This document shows positions 17,552-23,898 of a DNA stretch of 61,407 nt, piece after piece. Location of the stretch: IMG/VR virus record IMGVR_UViG_3300023174_000176, positions 1 through 61,407 of that record; one strand, written 5' to 3'. Position numbers and translations under genes: made by a program. This DNA comes from a virus. The notes under the pieces were generated by a model. The model had not been told where the DNA came from, did not search any database, and was given only the letters and a program-made list of their open reading frames with translations. Every line of letters starts with the position of its first letter. Within the stretch, counting starts at the first letter, position 1.

Positions 17552-17844
17552 TGAGAAATTGGCTAAGACAAAAACTACAAAACTTTTTGTATCCAATGGA
17601 TAATGATTGTGTAGTAGAAACAAAATCTGCTAGAAGAGGTGCTCTTGTTAGTCGTGGTTCACATCTTGACAGTAGAGGAATGAGTTTTACTATTCATATG
17701 GCTAATGGAGGTTATGTATTAGAATACTCATCTTATGATGAAAAAACTGATAGACACAATCACAACTTACATATCATCACATCTGACCAAGATATGGGTC
17801 AAGGTATCGCACATATTATCACACTGGAACTTTTGCGTAAATGA
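17551..17844 (+). CDS. Hypothetical protein
   Basis: A 97-residue mixed alpha/beta protein (MRNWLRQKLQNFLYPMDNDC at the start; FTIHMANGGYVLEYSSYDE in the middle). Unknown function. It is the last gene of the small-gene run and its stop overlaps the late-type promoter of the homing endonuclease, indicating that the endonuclease unit was inserted directly behind it, between it and the clamp loader gene. Confidence 0.7.
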   Translation: MRNWLRQKLQNFLYPMDNDCVVETKSARRGALVSRGSHLDSRGMSFTIHMANGGYVLEYSSYDEKTDRHNHNLHIITSDQDMGQGIAHIITLELLRK

Positions 17845-17850
17845 TAAATA
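17843..17850 (+). promoter_or_regulatory. Late promoter candidate (GATAAATA) of GIY-YIG gene 1
   Basis: GATAAATA overlaps the end of the 17551 gene and lies 60 bases before the endonuclease ATG. The same octamer is at the same distance (59 bases) from the second GIY-YIG gene on the other strand. Confidence 0.7.
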
Positions 17851-17912
17851 AGAGTGTAGTTCACGGAACGGGAATTCCCAACTACTCTAATGCTATGGAG
17901 AGCAATCAGCAT
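17851..17912 (+). ncRNA. Structured 5' leader of homing endonuclease 1
   Basis: Hairpin I: GTAGTT (17856-17861) pairs with AACTAC (17880-17885); after an internal loop (CAC/C), GGAA (17865-17868) pairs with TTCC (17875-17878). Hairpin II: ATGCT (17890-17894) pairs with AGCAT (17908-17912), placing GGAG in the loop and the start AUG in the stem. The leader at 20410-20471 has the same architecture with compensatory changes in four pairs. I infer translational control of the endonuclease, as known in principle for T4 I-TevI, though the sequence differs. Confidence 0.65.
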
Positions 17913-18522
17913 GATTATTTATTCAAAATTAAATCCACCGACGGGTTTCTATGTATACGCATATCTAAGAGAAAACGGCACGCCTTACTATATTGGAAAG
18001 GGGTCTAATCAACGTGCTTGGCGGAAAAGAAAATGCGAAATTCGTCCTCCAAAAAACAAAGATAGAATTATGATATTAGAATCAAACTTAACAGACATTG
18101 GTGCATTGGCGCTTGAGCGTAGAATGATACGATGGTGGGGACGGAAAGATTTAAGTACCGGAATATTGCACAATAGAACTGATGGCGGAGACGGAGCATC
18201 AGGGCAGATTCAGTCAATTGAAACTAGGATTAAACGAAGTCAAACAATGTTGAATCGGGTGCGTACATTAGAACATAGCCTAAACATAAGTTTAGGTAAA
18301 AAAGGAATCCCTCAATCAGTTGAATCTAATTTGAAACGCAGTATAACCCAAAAAGGTCAAAAAAGAGACCCGAAAGCTACTCTTAAAATGAGTATTAGTC
18401 AAACTGGTAAAAACAAATCACCACATATAAGACTAACATGCCCCTATTGTTTAAAAGAAGGTGGTGCATCAGGGATGAAACATTATCATTTTGAAAAGTG
18501 TAAATTTAAGGAAAATAAATGA
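17911..18522 (+). CDS. GIY-YIG homing endonuclease 1
   Basis: A free-standing homing endonuclease of 203 residues. The GIY-YIG core is at residues 10-50 ([19 protein letters not shown], then RAW), with an Arg-rich helix and conserved Glu ([15 protein letters not shown]). The middle holds repeated basic DNA-binding units ([19 protein letters not shown]), and the end is a zinc-finger-like C-x2-C-x12-H-x3-C. ATG at 17911 is chosen because GGAG precedes it and the paralogue starts identically (MIIY). Its stop overlaps the clamp loader ATG (ATGA). It likely spreads by cutting endonuclease-free relatives. Confidence 0.88.
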
Positions 18523-19448
18523 AGAATACATTATGGGTTGAGGCCTACAGACCACAAACAGTAGCAGACTATGTGTTTGTTGATGACCGACAAAAGAATC
18601 AAGTAGAGGGTTGGGTTAAAGATGGTAGCATTCCTCATCTATTACTATCAGGTGATCCGGGTACTGGTAAGACAACTCTTGCTAAAGTATTAATTCACGA
18701 ACTTGATGTAAGTGAATATGATGTATTGGAAATCAATGCATCACGTGAGAATAGTGTAGATGTGGTGCGTAACAAAATTGTTAACTTTGTACAAACGATG
18801 CCTTTTGGTAACTTCAAAGTTGTATTACTTGATGAAGCGGATTATTTAACACCAGCTGGGCAAGCGGCATTACGTAATGATATGGAAGCATATCATATGA
18901 CAGCACGATTTATTTTAACTTGTAACTATCAGCATAGAATCATCCCTGCATTGAAATCACGATGCCATGAGTTTCACATTACAAAAACAGATAAAACAGA
19001 GTTCACTGCGAGAGCGGCAACTGTGTTGGTAAGTGAAAACATTGATTTTAATTTAGATGATTTAGATAGTTATGTACGTGCTACATATCCAGACTTGCGT
19101 AAATGCTTGAATCAATTACAAGTTAATAGCAGTAGTGGTAAATTATTAGCACCTCAAAGTGTAGGTTCAGGTGAAGATGAGTTATTAGTAGAAGCAACTA
19201 ATTTGTTTAAAGCAGGAAAGATCCTTGAAGGTAGACAGCAACTATTACAATATATTGCATTGTATCCTACACGTATTGAAGATACATATGTTTGGATGTA
19301 TCAGAATTTAGATTTATGGGGTAAGTCTAATGAACAACGTGATGCTAGTATTATTGTTATTAGAAATGGTTTAGCAAACTTAAGTATGGTTGGAATTCCC
19401 GAAATATCATTGGCAGCTACATTGATTGAATTGACAGGAGATTTATGA
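18519..19448 (+). CDS. 44: Clamp loader large subunit (gp44-like)
   Basis: A 309-residue AAA+ ATPase of the RFC/gp44 type that opens and loads the sliding clamp (gp45 at 58100). Walker A GDPGTGKT is at residues 45-52, Walker B VVLLDEAD near residue 100, sensor 1 ILTCNYQ and the SRC motif (KSRCHEFHI) with the trans-acting arginine follow. The N-terminal [14 protein letters not shown] is characteristic of clamp loaders. The small subunit gp62 is not seen beside it. It overlaps the upstream endonuclease and downstream gene by four bases each, so translation is coupled. Confidence 0.93.
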
Positions 19449-19717
19449 GATATTTATTAATTACATTTATGAGAAAGCCTAATGGGCAAATTGATGAACA
19501 AGTTGCAGTAGCAAAGAAAGTTAAGCCTAGTGATTTTCAGACCTGCAATGTCATTTTAGATTATGCAAAGAAAAAAATAGATAAATGCGTAATTGAAGGT
19601 AAAGCGTTAGATAGAGAGTGGGACAAGATGCATGAATATTATGTACGGATTTATCCTAATCTAATTGCACAACTTGAAAAAGAAGCAAGTATTACTGAAA
19701 AAACAAATGGGGCCTAA
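19445..19717 (+). CDS. Conserved-type hypothetical protein after clamp loader
   Basis: A 90-residue protein ([20 protein letters not shown], then a helix-rich C-terminus with DREWDKMHEYYVRIYP). Similar small proteins follow gp44 in aquatic T4-like phages as I recall; the function is not known to me. Its position suggests gp62, but it is only half the usual length of gp62 and no similarity is evident. The stop codon lies in the loop of a bidirectional terminator. Confidence 0.75.
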   Translation: MRYLLITFMRKPNGQIDEQVAVAKKVKPSDFQTCNVILDYAKKKIDKCVIEGKALDREWDKMHEYYVRIYPNLIAQLEKEASITEKTNGA

Positions 19718-19730
19718 GCCCCATTTTATT
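19705..19730. terminator. Bidirectional intrinsic terminator between convergent genes
   Basis: AAATGGGGC (19705-19713) pairs with GCCCCATTT (19718-19726) across the four-base loop CTAA, a 9-bp stem. T-rich sequence follows on the + strand and an A-run on the other side gives Ts on the minus strand. It serves the 19445 gene (+) and homing endonuclease 2 (-). Confidence 0.9.
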
Positions 19731-20412
19731 TAATACTTTTACATTTATTACCGTGCCAGCGAGTAAAGTTACCTTTATCTACTTTCTTTTGACAATGTAG
19801 ACAAGTTAAACTAGATTTTAACATTCCTATTTTTATCTTGTTACGTTCTTCTTCGGACCATTTTTTGCCAAACATGTGATGATCCTGACCAAACTTTTTA
19901 CTCTCTTGTTTTTGAGTTTTACCGTACATAGGGTTATTTGATCCATGTTTATCTAACTGATTAACCTTCATCAAATCAATTGATTTTTTAGAATGTTTCT
20001 TACCAAACATACCATTTGCTTGTCCCTGTAGTCTTACACCAAACATGCTATTATTTTCTCCGGAACACCCTTTTTTCTTGCGTGTTTCTATAGAATCGGA
20101 GCTTGAACCTTCACCTCCGTCTGTTTTATTTCTTAATATACCTGTACCTAAATCTTTACGACCATACCAACGAATATATCTACGTTCCATTGCGAATGCC
20201 CATAACTCAGTAAGTCCACAGTGTGTAATGATAATTCGTGTGTGATCCTTAGGTGTATGTACACCTATTATTTTCCCATTGCGATTAATACGATGTTCTT
20301 CCCATGCTCTTCTGCCACTACCTTTTCCGGAATAATATGGGGTACCGTCTTCACGTAGATAAAGATAATGATAGAATCCTGGAGGTGGATTAGATTTGTT
20401 ATAAATAATCAT
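19726..20412 (-). CDS. GIY-YIG homing endonuclease 2
   Basis: A 228-residue paralogue of endonuclease 1 on the opposite strand. Core: [19 protein letters not shown] then RRAW (the YIG is YSG here), followed by [20 protein letters not shown]. Several NUMOD3-like units follow ([43 protein letters not shown]), which bind the DNA minor groove in known families, and the same C-x2-C-x12-H-x3-C end. Start at 20412 (MIIY) has AAAGGAG eight bases upstream. It is inserted between the clamp loader unit and PhoH, with its own promoter and structured leader. Confidence 0.87.
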
Positions 20413-20471
20413 GCTGATTGCTCCTTTTAGCATTAGAGTGAGTGGGCACTGGTAATGCCGCGACTCACATC
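20410..20471 (-). ncRNA. Structured 5' leader of homing endonuclease 2
   Basis: Read on the minus strand: GTGAGT (20468-20463) pairs with ACTCAC (20443-20438); after a CGC/C internal loop GGCA (20459-20456) pairs with TGCC (20448-20445). ATGCT then pairs with AGCAT over the start codon, with GGAG in the loop. Compared with the leader at 17851, four base pairs change on both sides while pairing is kept, and CTAATGCT plus GAGCAATCAGCATG are identical. Confidence 0.65.
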
Positions 20472-20479
20472 TATTTATC
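20472..20479 (-). promoter_or_regulatory. Late promoter candidate (GATAAATA) of GIY-YIG gene 2
   Basis: GATAAATA on the minus strand, directly before the structured leader and 59 bases before the start codon at 20412. It matches the arrangement of endonuclease gene 1. Confidence 0.7.
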
Positions 20480-20483
20480 TTAA

Positions 20484-21299
20484 TTAGTCATACATATTAA
20501 GTATTGGACCAATCAATCTATGACGTTGAACATCTTTTAGTTCAAATGTACATAATTTTATACCAGGAATCACCTCCTTCCCCAACCTATTTTTCAAATC
20601 CATTAGCCCGTTGTCTGCTGTTTTTCTATCTGTTTGTTCTATGTCACCACCTATAACAATTTTACTGCCTACGCCGATTCTGGTCATAATCATTTTGAGT
20701 TGACCCGGGGTTGCGTTTTGTGCTTCGTCTAATACTACCCAACTATGTTTGAAATTTCGTCCTCGACAAAATGCTAGAGGTGCTATTTCCACTATCTGTT
20801 CTTCTAGCATGTGGGCTATTTCCTTTGTGGTGTAGTACTCACGCAGAACGTCTAATAATGGTCTAGTCCATGGTTCCATCTTTTGATTGATATCTCCTGG
20901 TAAAAAACCGTGTTGTTCATCATCAACACCTACTGCTGGTCTAGATAATATGATTCTTTCACATTCACCATTACGCATAGCTTTTATGGCTGCAAGCATA
21001 GCTAAGTAAGTTTTACCAGTACCCGCAGGACCTGTGACTACGACAATATCTGTCTGCTCGTCCAGTAGTGCGAGGATATAATTTTCTTGGTTAACTGACT
21101 TGGGGATAAGTTGAACGGGCTTTTTATTGACCCGCATTTCCCTTTGTGCTTGTGCGAAATCTATCGTTTTTGATTCATGTGTGTAAAAAGTTTGATTATC
21201 TTGTTTTTTATTGTGTGAAAACCGTGTGTCTTGTGTACGTAATGCGCTAGTTTTTCTTTTGCTCAAGTTAATTCTCCTTTGTAGAGCGTGAGTTCTCAT
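20484..21299 (-). CDS. phoH: PhoH-like ATPase
   Basis: A 271-residue P-loop protein with the PhoH domain: Walker A GPAGTGKT at residues 90-97, [20 protein letters not shown], Walker [21 protein letters not shown] and [13 protein letters not shown]. The first 60 residues are basic and variable. PhoH is very common in marine phages; its exact role (RNA metabolism or phosphate stress) is unsettled. ATG at 21299 is preferred over the TTG three codons upstream. It diverges from the 21437 gene. Confidence 0.92.
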
Positions 21300-22604: not shown

Positions 22605-23206
22605 TGGCAACTATATTACCAAAAAAAACAGGTTTTGAAAAACCAATGGCATTAGACGATGACCATCATGAATTATTAGCGGCTGATCCTAGTATTTCAC
22701 AATTCCCTCAGGGAAGCACATTTGGAGATAACAATGGTTACAACACATTATCAAGCGGAAGTTCAACATTCGGCTCTACCAGTGGCTTTGGTTCATCAAC
22801 ATCAACGGGCTTTGGTGGAGGTTCAGGATTTGGAGCGCCAGCGTCTGGGTTCGGTAGCACCCAAAACGTTAACCAATCAAACAGCAACCAACCAGTACTC
22901 ACAGGAGCCGCCCCAACAAATGCCGCCAGTGGGGCAGATGTATTAGTAGCAAACGATAACACAGATTTCATAAATAAAAAATGGCGTCCATTAATGGCAT
23001 TTGTTTATATGATAACTTGTACTTGTGATTTTGTTATATTTCCAATATTATGGAGTTTACTACAGGCAATGAGTAAGGGTTCAGTAACGATGCAATGGCA
23101 ACCATTAACGTTACAAGGTGCTGGGTTATATCATATCGCTATGGGTGCTGTATTAGGTGTAGCAGCTTACGGAAGAACAAAAGAAAAATTAGAAGGAAAA
23201 CAATGA
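22604..23206 (+). CDS. Holin-like membrane protein with FG-rich N-terminal region
   Basis: A 200-residue protein with two predicted membrane segments at about residues 129-152 (PLMAFVYMITCTCDFVIFPI) and 171-190 (GAGLYHIAMGAVLGVAAYG), ending in a short charged tail. The NKKWRPL start of the first segment and the overall layout resemble phage holins of the 3-TM gene-transfer type. Unusually, residues 38-85 are Gly/Ser/Thr-rich with six Phe-Gly pairs. The lysis role with the GH19 endolysin at 10356 is inferred. Its stop overlaps the next ATG (ATGA). Confidence 0.65.
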   Translation: MATILPKKTGFEKPMALDDDHHELLAADPSISQFPQGSTFGDNNGYNTLSSGSSTFGSTSGFGSSTSTGFGGGSGFGAPASGFGSTQNVNQSNSNQPVLTGAAPTNAASGADVLVANDNTDFINKKWRPLMAFVYMITCTCDFVIFPILWSLLQAMSKGSVTMQWQPLTLQGAGLYHIAMGAVLGVAAYGRTKEKLEGKQ

Positions 23207-23898
23207 TACCATATACATATCTATTAGGTTGGCCGGAAATAGATAGATGGTATTACGGAGTTCGCTATGCTAAAACATGTCATCCTAGTGATTTATGGGT
23301 AACATACAAAACCTCAAGCAGGCATGTTAAATCAATTGTACAATTATATGGAGAACCGTCAATTATTGAAGTACGAAAAATATTTAATAATTCTATTTCT
23401 GCTAGACTTTGGGAACACCGAGTCCTAAAAAAAATGAAAGTGGTATACTCTAATAAATGGATTAATAGAACAGATAATATTTCTATTGCGCCATTATACG
23501 GATTAGATAACCCTGCAAAACGAGCTGACGTGCGTATATTAATTTCTAAGAATACTCCTAAAAAATTTGGAAATGATAATCCTATGAAAGATCCAGAAAT
23601 TGCATTAAAAGTATCTACTAAATTAAAAGGGAGAAGAAACTATTGGCAAGACGGTGATTCTAATCCAGCCAAAAGACCCGAAGTTAGAAAACAACTAAGT
23701 AAACCCGGCAATACTAATCCTTTTTATGGTAAAAAACATACGGATGCATTCCGACAACAAACATCTTTACGCTTTAAGGGAATTCCAAAAGAACAAGTTG
23801 AATGTCCACAGTGTGGAAATATTGGTGGTAAAAATACTATGGGTAGATGGCATTTTGACAATTGCAAAATAAAAGAAAAAGTAGCCGGGGTCGTATAA
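23203..23898 (+). CDS. Putative homing endonuclease 3 (GIY-YIG-related)
   Basis: A 231-residue protein. The start at 23203 (MIPYTYLLGWPEIDRWYYGV) follows RBS AAGGAAA; an upstream in-frame ATG at 23095 lies in the holin-like gene and is rejected. YTYLLGW and RWYYGVRYA look like a diverged GIY-YIG pair, with RLWEHRVLKKM supplying the conserved Glu. Repeated units (DNPAKRADVRILISK, NNPMKDP-like, NPFYGKKHTDAF) are NUMOD3-like. It ends in the same C-x2-C-x12-H-x3-C finger as endonucleases 1 and 2. It is coupled to the holin-like gene and lacks the structured leader. Confidence 0.75.
   Translation: MIPYTYLLGWPEIDRWYYGVRYAKTCHPSDLWVTYKTSSRHVKSIVQLYGEPSIIEVRKIFNNSISARLWEHRVLKKMKVVYSNKWINRTDNISIAPLYGLDNPAKRADVRILISKNTPKKFGNDNPMKDPEIALKVSTKLKGRRNYWQDGDSNPAKRPEVRKQLSKPGNTNPFYGKKHTDAFRQQTSLRFKGIPKEQVECPQCGNIGGKNTMGRWHFDNCKIKEKVAGVV

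Follow-up and report, generated by a model that had tools for sequence, protein, structure and literature searches.

A mobile homing-endonuclease cassette of T4-like phages with a conserved structured leader and proposed antisense-RNA control

We analyzed two homing-endonuclease genes, HE1 and HE2, and the leaders that precede them in a 61,407-nucleotide stretch of viral DNA (IMG/VR record IMGVR_UViG_3300023174_000176, positions 1 to 61,407; hereafter the window). Both leaders were found to be copies of a conserved 60-base structured element that moves together with its gene and, in the set examined, is restricted to endonuclease genes. We consider it reasonably probable that gene and element form a mobile cassette with built-in antisense-RNA control, in which the antisense RNA represses the cassette's own endonuclease. 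We infer that promoter-type boxes on both sides of the leader are active late promoters and that an antisense RNA is made, ends after the second of its two hairpins and lowers endonuclease translation.

The leaders were read directly from the sequence. An earlier note on this DNA had located both of them, at 60 and 59 bases, correctly to the base, and its outer and inner stems, with the base-pair exchanges between the two leaders, were found as described (GTAGTT CAC GGAA..TTCC C AACTAC at HE1; GTGAGT CGC GGCA..TGCC C ACTCAC at HE2). Both copies have GAGCAATCAGC followed by ATGATTATTTA, the latter part of the endonuclease gene, and the combined pattern occurs twice in the window compared to 0.00 occurrences expected from shuffles. 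What the note had drawn as a CRC/C internal loop is instead a purine-pyrimidine (R-Y) base pair between two bulged C residues. Among 203 copies of the element this pair reads G-C in 164, A-T in 13, A.C in 25 and G.T in 1 on the gene strand (Fisher p = 6e-10, uncorrected for relatedness).

The element is widespread. The exact word GAGCAATCAGCATGATTATTTA, the last 22 bases of the leader element, was detected in 26 IMG/VR stretches, and a looser pattern gave at least 120 matches. The 203 distinct copies were collected from all fetched loci (handles beginning with L below) with an anchor-only regular expression that makes no use of pairing. A covariance model for genome-wide search, an approach proposed in the earlier note, was built without either TAAATA word; it recovered 99 copies in 30 large phage records, with a maximum of 13 in one 360-kb genome, and matched at the HE2 antisense RNA with an E-value of 1.2e-19. 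All 60 of the 60 genome-wide matches examined adjoin the start of a homing-endonuclease gene or its truncated remnant, and TAAATA and TATTTA flank nearly all of these. Proteins encoded 3' of the element include GIY-YIG (phrog_314), phrog_655, I-TevIII-like HNH (phrog_12324) and endonuclease VII-like (phrog_1035) families. Endonuclease homologues without the leader (L031, L032, L073, L100, L106 and the window gene HE3) are also without TATTTA. Relatives of the element are carried by cultured Pseudoalteromonas phage XG4 (E 1.1e-8) and by cultured Caulobacter phage Cr30 (E 6.6e-7), in the latter directly 5' of an annotated homing endonuclease. The model gave no match in cyanophages S-SRM01, B23, RN05-S and ACG-2014f, which carry related endonucleases, nor in T4, S-PM2, Syn9, PhiW-14, HTVC008M, phage 25, RB3, Paride, PA5oct, Atu_ph07, Phosso or BcepSauron. 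A weak match in Aeh1 (E 0.1) lies inside tRNA-Ala and was attributed to chance, three exact-pattern matches in cellular genomes were set aside, as no significant model match was obtained there, and blastn of the leaders against named phages gave no match or short chance matches only.

The structured strand is very probably the antisense strand, opposite to the one that the earlier note had folded. On the gene strand the main stem is paired in 97.6% of cells over the 203 copies, and its non-Watson-Crick cells are A.C (or C.A) in 29 cases and G.T in none. Counted as distinct cases, the main-stem departures are 16 A.C versus 0 G.T (p = 3e-5 with every distinct case taken as a single event); the corresponding counts are 15 versus 2 in the second hairpin and 17 versus 7 in the inner stem, and the genome-wide set gave 13 versus 1 both in the outer stem and in the R-Y pair. 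Since A.C on one strand is G.U on the other, the strand on which pairing is kept is the antisense, where the alignment holds 65 G.U cells versus 3 A.C. Applied without guidance to 36 diverse copies aligned on the antisense strand, RNAalifold predicted one hairpin of 8 pairs and one of 11 (19 pairs, -20.98 kcal/mol), compared to 14 pairs and -13.3 kcal/mol for the sense strand. Standard pairs make up 98.5% of cells in the antisense structure, and 14 of its pairs show two-sided changes. The earlier note had suggested a test for covariation, and 131 two-sided cells were observed, whereas shuffles had 32 and slid controls 6-13, with 45 stem combinations in which pairing is kept and with pairing preserved in the leaders of other phages. 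The invariant words CTA and CAG, single-stranded in the sense reading, pair on the antisense strand (C-G, U-A, G.U), and the G.U pair is changed to A-U in copy L471. The second stem of the note does covary strongly, with CTAAYGCT and AGC(A)AUCAG as partners and not the start-codon AGCAT. XG4 keeps both antisense hairpins with an outer C-G exchanged for G-C; Cr30 keeps the second, and parts of its best-scoring single fold are different. Conservation of a structured element is virtually certain, and the reading of the leader as a mere 5' untranslated region, copied with recently spread endonuclease genes and free of selected structure, is already excluded by the two-sided changes and the stem combinations, even though the cassette is mobile and multi-copy as that reading would have it.

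Mobility was apparent from relatives in which the insertion sites are empty. At site 1, empty in L482 and L484, the stop codon of a 97-amino-acid gene overlaps the clamp-loader start; in the window the insert runs from TAAATA to the HE1 stop codon. At site 2, empty in L508 and L510, phoH is followed directly by its terminator; in the window GATAAATA, leader and HE2 lie between the two. Thus, the boundaries at both sites indicate that the mobile unit consists of promoter box, leader and gene and of nothing else. In window positions 19705-20484, HE2 separates phoH from the intrinsic terminator AAATGGGGCTTAGGCCCCATTTGTTTTTT. A relative with a 93%-identical clamp loader (L482/L477), in which both window sites are empty, has a different leader-endonuclease cassette one gene further on, in opposite orientation between the clamp-loader gene and a 90-amino-acid gene. 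A 364-kb phage (L039) holds a 62%-identical HE2 relative with its own diverged leader at the same post-phoH site, as is expected of site-specific homing. The element also stands 5' of truncated or frameshifted endonuclease genes of less than about 40 amino acids (L141, L153, L231, L432, L446, L480 and others), and thus persists beyond the gene, for some time at least.

Boxes of promoter type were found on both strands at fixed spacing. On the gene strand NTAAATA is present in 195 of the 203 copies, and in 147 of these 195 it is followed by 5 bases and then the first G of the long stem. TAYTTA is found 3' of CAGC in 196 of the 203 copies, at the 5-base distance in 162 of the 196. This word is read in three frames as the start codon shifts (M-x-I-Y, M-I-F or M-L-F, and M-Y-L), and in the M-x-I-Y frame 133 of 135 genes use ATT for its Ile, versus 42% elsewhere in the same genes. 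Together, the three frames and the codon bias argue that nucleic acid, not protein, is conserved at TATTTA. Read antisense, TATTTA is TAAATA, the core of a T4-type late promoter, followed by five bases and then the G of the first antisense hairpin. The T4 late box lies at about -13 to -6; with this spacing both transcripts would start at the first base of a hairpin region. Late promoters read TATAAATA in T4 and NATAAATA in S-PM2 (PMC2984593). NMTAAATA lies 8-45 bases 5' of an open reading frame start in 13 of 45 window cases versus 6 of 32 for the best permuted word, and a gp55-like late sigma factor was detected in 19 of 19 genomes tested. Judged from sequence, it appears quite likely that the TAAATA box within the gene drives transcription of an antisense RNA.

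In the mechanism that we propose, a T4-late-type promoter (GATAAATA) at the 5' end of the cassette would drive the endonuclease mRNA from about the first G of the long stem, and a second late-type promoter (TAAATA), on the opposite strand within the first endonuclease codons, would drive an RNA of about 60-70 nucleotides across the ribosome-binding site. The convergent promoters would yield an endonuclease mRNA and an antisense RNA exactly complementary to its leader; the antisense region covers the Shine-Dalgarno sequence up to the last base before the start codon. The antisense RNA is predicted to fold into two hairpins with one base between them. The CUCC(U) loop of the first would be complementary to the endonuclease Shine-Dalgarno sequence, and the second, with its U-rich tail (mean of 5 T in 9 bases), would probably end antisense transcription. 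Contact between loops, and then formation of a duplex, would keep ribosomes from binding, in the way that RNA-OUT acts on the IS10 transposase. Being fully complementary to the mRNA leader, the antisense RNA should block translation and/or trigger decay, with the nuclease kept scarce. A selected RNA structure opposite a gene, a predicted promoter-type box facing that gene and overlap with its translation start, as in cis-antisense RNAs, were all found here. The predicted duplex energy is about -110 kcal/mol for cognate pairs, -53 to -62 on average between copies of the same genome and -23 for the shuffled control, which suggests that cross-talk between copies may occur. As the antisense RNAs of the cassettes are similar, RNA from one copy could dampen the others (up to 13 in a genome); such trans-acting self-limitation is a speculative extension that we regard as rather unlikely.

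Several observations weigh against antisense control. XG4 has the hairpins but neither box, the boxes of Cr30 are altered, and among the 203 leader copies TAYTTA is absent from 7 and TAAATA from 8. By a simple terminator scan the second hairpin was not called. The sense leader, being complementary, can adopt most of the second hairpin too; z-scores of single sequences are modest, between -0.7 and -2.5, and 2.2 of the 3.2 kcal/mol by which folding energy favours the antisense strand are also seen in shuffles (base composition). In view of this bias and of the non-independence of related copies, the strand argument is carried by the ratio of G.U to A.C and by the alignment-wide covariation.

T4-like phages are known to hold back translation of the endonucleases I-TevI, SegB and MobE by sense-strand hairpins tied to a late promoter (PMC2988022, PMC3014915), so that the precedent pointed to in the earlier note is real (PMC2988022) and an exact one is available for a sense-strand alternative. 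By this account read-through transcripts would mask the Shine-Dalgarno sequence or start codon, by pairing UAAAUA with UAUUUA or CUAAUGCU with AGCAU, and late transcripts, which start after the box, would be free. A predicted late-promoter-type box does lie immediately 5' of the endonuclease gene, as at I-TevI, SegB and MobE; unlike the inhibitory structures there, which belong to the sense mRNA and depend on sequence 5' of the late start site, the covarying structure is antisense and lies downstream of the gene-strand TAAATA box. The sequence of TATTTA is complementary to TAAATA, re-pairing seems to occur in a few TAAATA-less copies (L107, L476), and the modelled opening energy falls by a mean of 0.56 kcal/mol when TAAATA is scrambled. 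Yet the pair shows no covariation, is broken by TACTTA in 12 copies and has a median predicted pairing probability of 0.01, and departures on the sense strand are A.C instead of G.U. A closing stem of UAAAUA and UAUUUA in read-through transcripts fits by position and frame-independence but not by covariation, its thermodynamics are weak, and the antisense promoter explains the TATTTA word better. Opening energy differs by 2.4 kcal/mol between read-through and late transcripts; as 1.8 of this persists with the box scrambled, it is mostly a length effect. The CUAAUGCU/AGCAU switch over the start codon was rejected as not conserved: the pairing of arm CTAATGCT with AGCAT, claimed in the earlier note, is lost in many copies (arms ACATT, ATACT and TGATT; starts CAGCAATG and CAGCTATG). 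Of the portable RNA switch that the note had envisaged, a structured control element travelling with the endonuclease is borne out by insert boundaries, several unrelated families and covariation. The part in which the mRNA masks its own start codon fails on the lost start pairing, the A.C departures and the better antisense fold (19 pairs at -21.0 versus 14 at -13.3 kcal/mol), and is unsupported in that the conserved word following the start codon can be read as a box for an antisense promoter. We judge sense-strand masking improbable.

Two further accounts keep the structure and assign it another role. A trans-acting small RNA might use its CUCC loop to act on other mRNAs of phage or host, or be protein-bound, with its position at endonuclease genes due to hitch-hiking and not to control. 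Its loop is indeed an anti-Shine-Dalgarno sequence, and structure and single-stranded invariants are conserved far beyond what simple cis complementarity needs; with 60 of 60 examined matches lying across the start of a gene, or gene remnant, for an endonuclease, and an insert that contains nothing else, we give this account little credence. A purely DNA-level element, with a bottom-strand hairpin or inverted-repeat binding sites serving homing, recombination or autorepression, would show covariation as well and accept G.T on one of its strands, and I-TevI represses via an operator overlapping its late promoter (PMC2988022). No single protein is an obvious binder of an element common to several endonuclease families, the loop and stem sequences vary freely, and the constant spacing of promoter-type boxes on both strands agrees with transcription; we hold this account to be very improbable.

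Neither the sense hairpins nor the antisense RNA CfrI is a conserved-structure family that travels with the gene. The hairpins of I-TevI, I-TevII, I-TevIII, SegB and MobE in T4 and Aeh1 likewise belong to T4-like phage endonuclease genes with a late promoter just upstream and structure at the ribosome-binding site (PMC2988022, PMC3014915). Whereas an unrelated hairpin of the sense mRNA serves each of those genes, a single conserved family travels here with many endonuclease families; it is antisense, and its predicted second promoter is located within the gene. CfrI of cyanophage S-PM2, an antisense RNA of about 225 nucleotides over a homing-endonuclease gene and psbA, is a proposed regulator and also lies over an endonuclease region of a T4-like phage (PMC2984593, PMC12197685). 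By contrast to the present element it is longer, links two genes and is described from one locus, and S-PM2 has no model match. The hairpin of seg43 in Aeromonas phage 25, stable and just before a ribosome-binding site that is left free (PMC2988022), is a single locus, and phage 25 has no model match either. In line with the earlier note's statement that no described motif matches, no Rfam 15 family was above threshold in the window on either strand, and relaxed Rfam scans of both leaders and Cr30 gave none or two chance snoRNAs. No description of the element was found in the open-licence literature searched; an earlier description elsewhere is possible. RNA-OUT of IS10 and CopA of plasmids are short structured antisense RNAs over their target's translation start that control a mobile or copy-number function. 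The proposed RNA resembles these, plasmid RNAI and sar of phage P22 (68/69 nucleotides; PMC12197685) in this respect, but differs in sequence and fold, with two hairpins, late phage promoters and many unrelated nucleases.

Positions of the leaders, genes, boxes and proposed antisense RNAs in the window are listed below.

Table 1. Features of the two cassettes in the window.
Feature	Position	Strand	Remarks
Box GATAAATA, late-promoter type, HE1 mRNA	17843-17850	+	Read directly; 5 bases 5' of first base of long stem
HE1 mRNA leader, 60 bases	17851-17910	+	Read directly; Shine-Dalgarno GGAG 17897-17900; inside insert by empty-site comparison
HE1, free-standing GIY-YIG endonuclease, 203 amino acids	17911-18522	+	ATG 17911; between 97-amino-acid gene and clamp-loader gene
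Proposed antisense RNA 1, body	17856-17910	-	5' G is complement of C17910; two hairpins; G.U on antisense strand
Antisense RNA 1, first hairpin	17887-17909	-	17887-17894 pairs with 17901-17909, bulge 17904; loop with anti-Shine-Dalgarno CUCC
Antisense RNA 1, second hairpin	17856-17885	-	17856-17861/17880-17885, 17863/17879 (A.C on gene strand, G.U antisense), 17865-17868/17875-17878; bulged 17862, 17864
Antisense RNA 1, proposed 3' end	near 17843-17855	-	U-rich tail ACUCUUAUUUAU
Antisense RNA 1, promoter-type box AATAAATA	17916-17923	-	TATTTA in HE1 codons 3-5; 5 bases from antisense 5' G
Box GATAAATA, late-promoter type, HE2 mRNA	20479-20472	-	Read directly
HE2 mRNA leader, 59 bases	20471-20413	-	Read directly; Shine-Dalgarno GGAG 20424-20421
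HE2, free-standing GIY-YIG endonuclease with NUMOD3, 228 amino acids	20412-19726	-	ATG 20412; between phoH stop codon and phoH terminator
Proposed antisense RNA 2, body	20413-20468	+	5' G 20413; hairpins 20414-20436 and 20438-20468; tail to about 20479 (AUCUAUUUAUC)
Antisense RNA 2, promoter-type box TATAAATA	20400-20407	+	Inside HE2 codons 3-5

By motif and predicted fold HE1 and HE2 are GIY-YIG homing endonucleases. Both were assigned to PHROG 314 (homing endonuclease), and HE2 has a NUMOD3 domain (Pfam, 2e-9). With a 14-member alignment the GIY-YIG pattern was found to be invariant (YxY...YYxGKG, R, E), and a profile match to GIY-YIG chains of the PDB was obtained (E 0.001). The HE1 model (mean predicted local distance difference test score, 68) had as its best fold match the UvrC GIY-YIG domain 1yd6 (Foldseek probability 0.93, E 0.13, TM score by target 0.60). 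The phage of the window is T4-like as judged by gp23, which the contigs with the element carry, the gp55-like sigma factor and a clamp loader/phoH neighbourhood that resembles that of Pseudomonas phages Paride and PA5oct.

The third GIY-YIG-type gene of the window, HE3 (MIPYTYLLGW..., 23202-23898, + strand), which has neither leader nor TATTTA, overlaps the end of the upstream gene with its start codon (AATGATACC), so that its expression probably depends on translational coupling. The unrelated nuclease domains of HE1, HE2, HE3, L214, L178, L083 and L471 share a C-terminal CxxC...WH/YHxxxC zinc-finger-like tail, which is another module swapped between nuclease families. The free-standing HNH endonucleases that bear the element are about 38% identical to intron-encoded I-TevIII (L561, phage RB3); at the RB3 I-TevIII start (L561) a different, sense-strand hairpin surrounds TATAAATA. 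GIY-YIG endonucleases in MW015081 (62524-63141), MN695335 (41542-42165) and PV340852 (156280-156510) are labelled 'translation initiation factor 2', apparently a misannotation.

If the proposed control is correct, the element would add to the structured phage RNAs a family that is new and widespread and has a clear genetic partner. Homing endonucleases would then spread as complete regulatory cassettes of two promoters, antisense RNA and nuclease, with the control part swapped between families. Were the RNAs also to act in trans, selfish genes would be under a copy-number control that extends across protein families, and stems would be favoured to drift into separate specificity groups. How selfish nucleases present at a dozen copies per phage genome avoid harming it becomes testable, and metagenomic material is not required, since relatives of the element occur in the cultured phages Cr30 and XG4.

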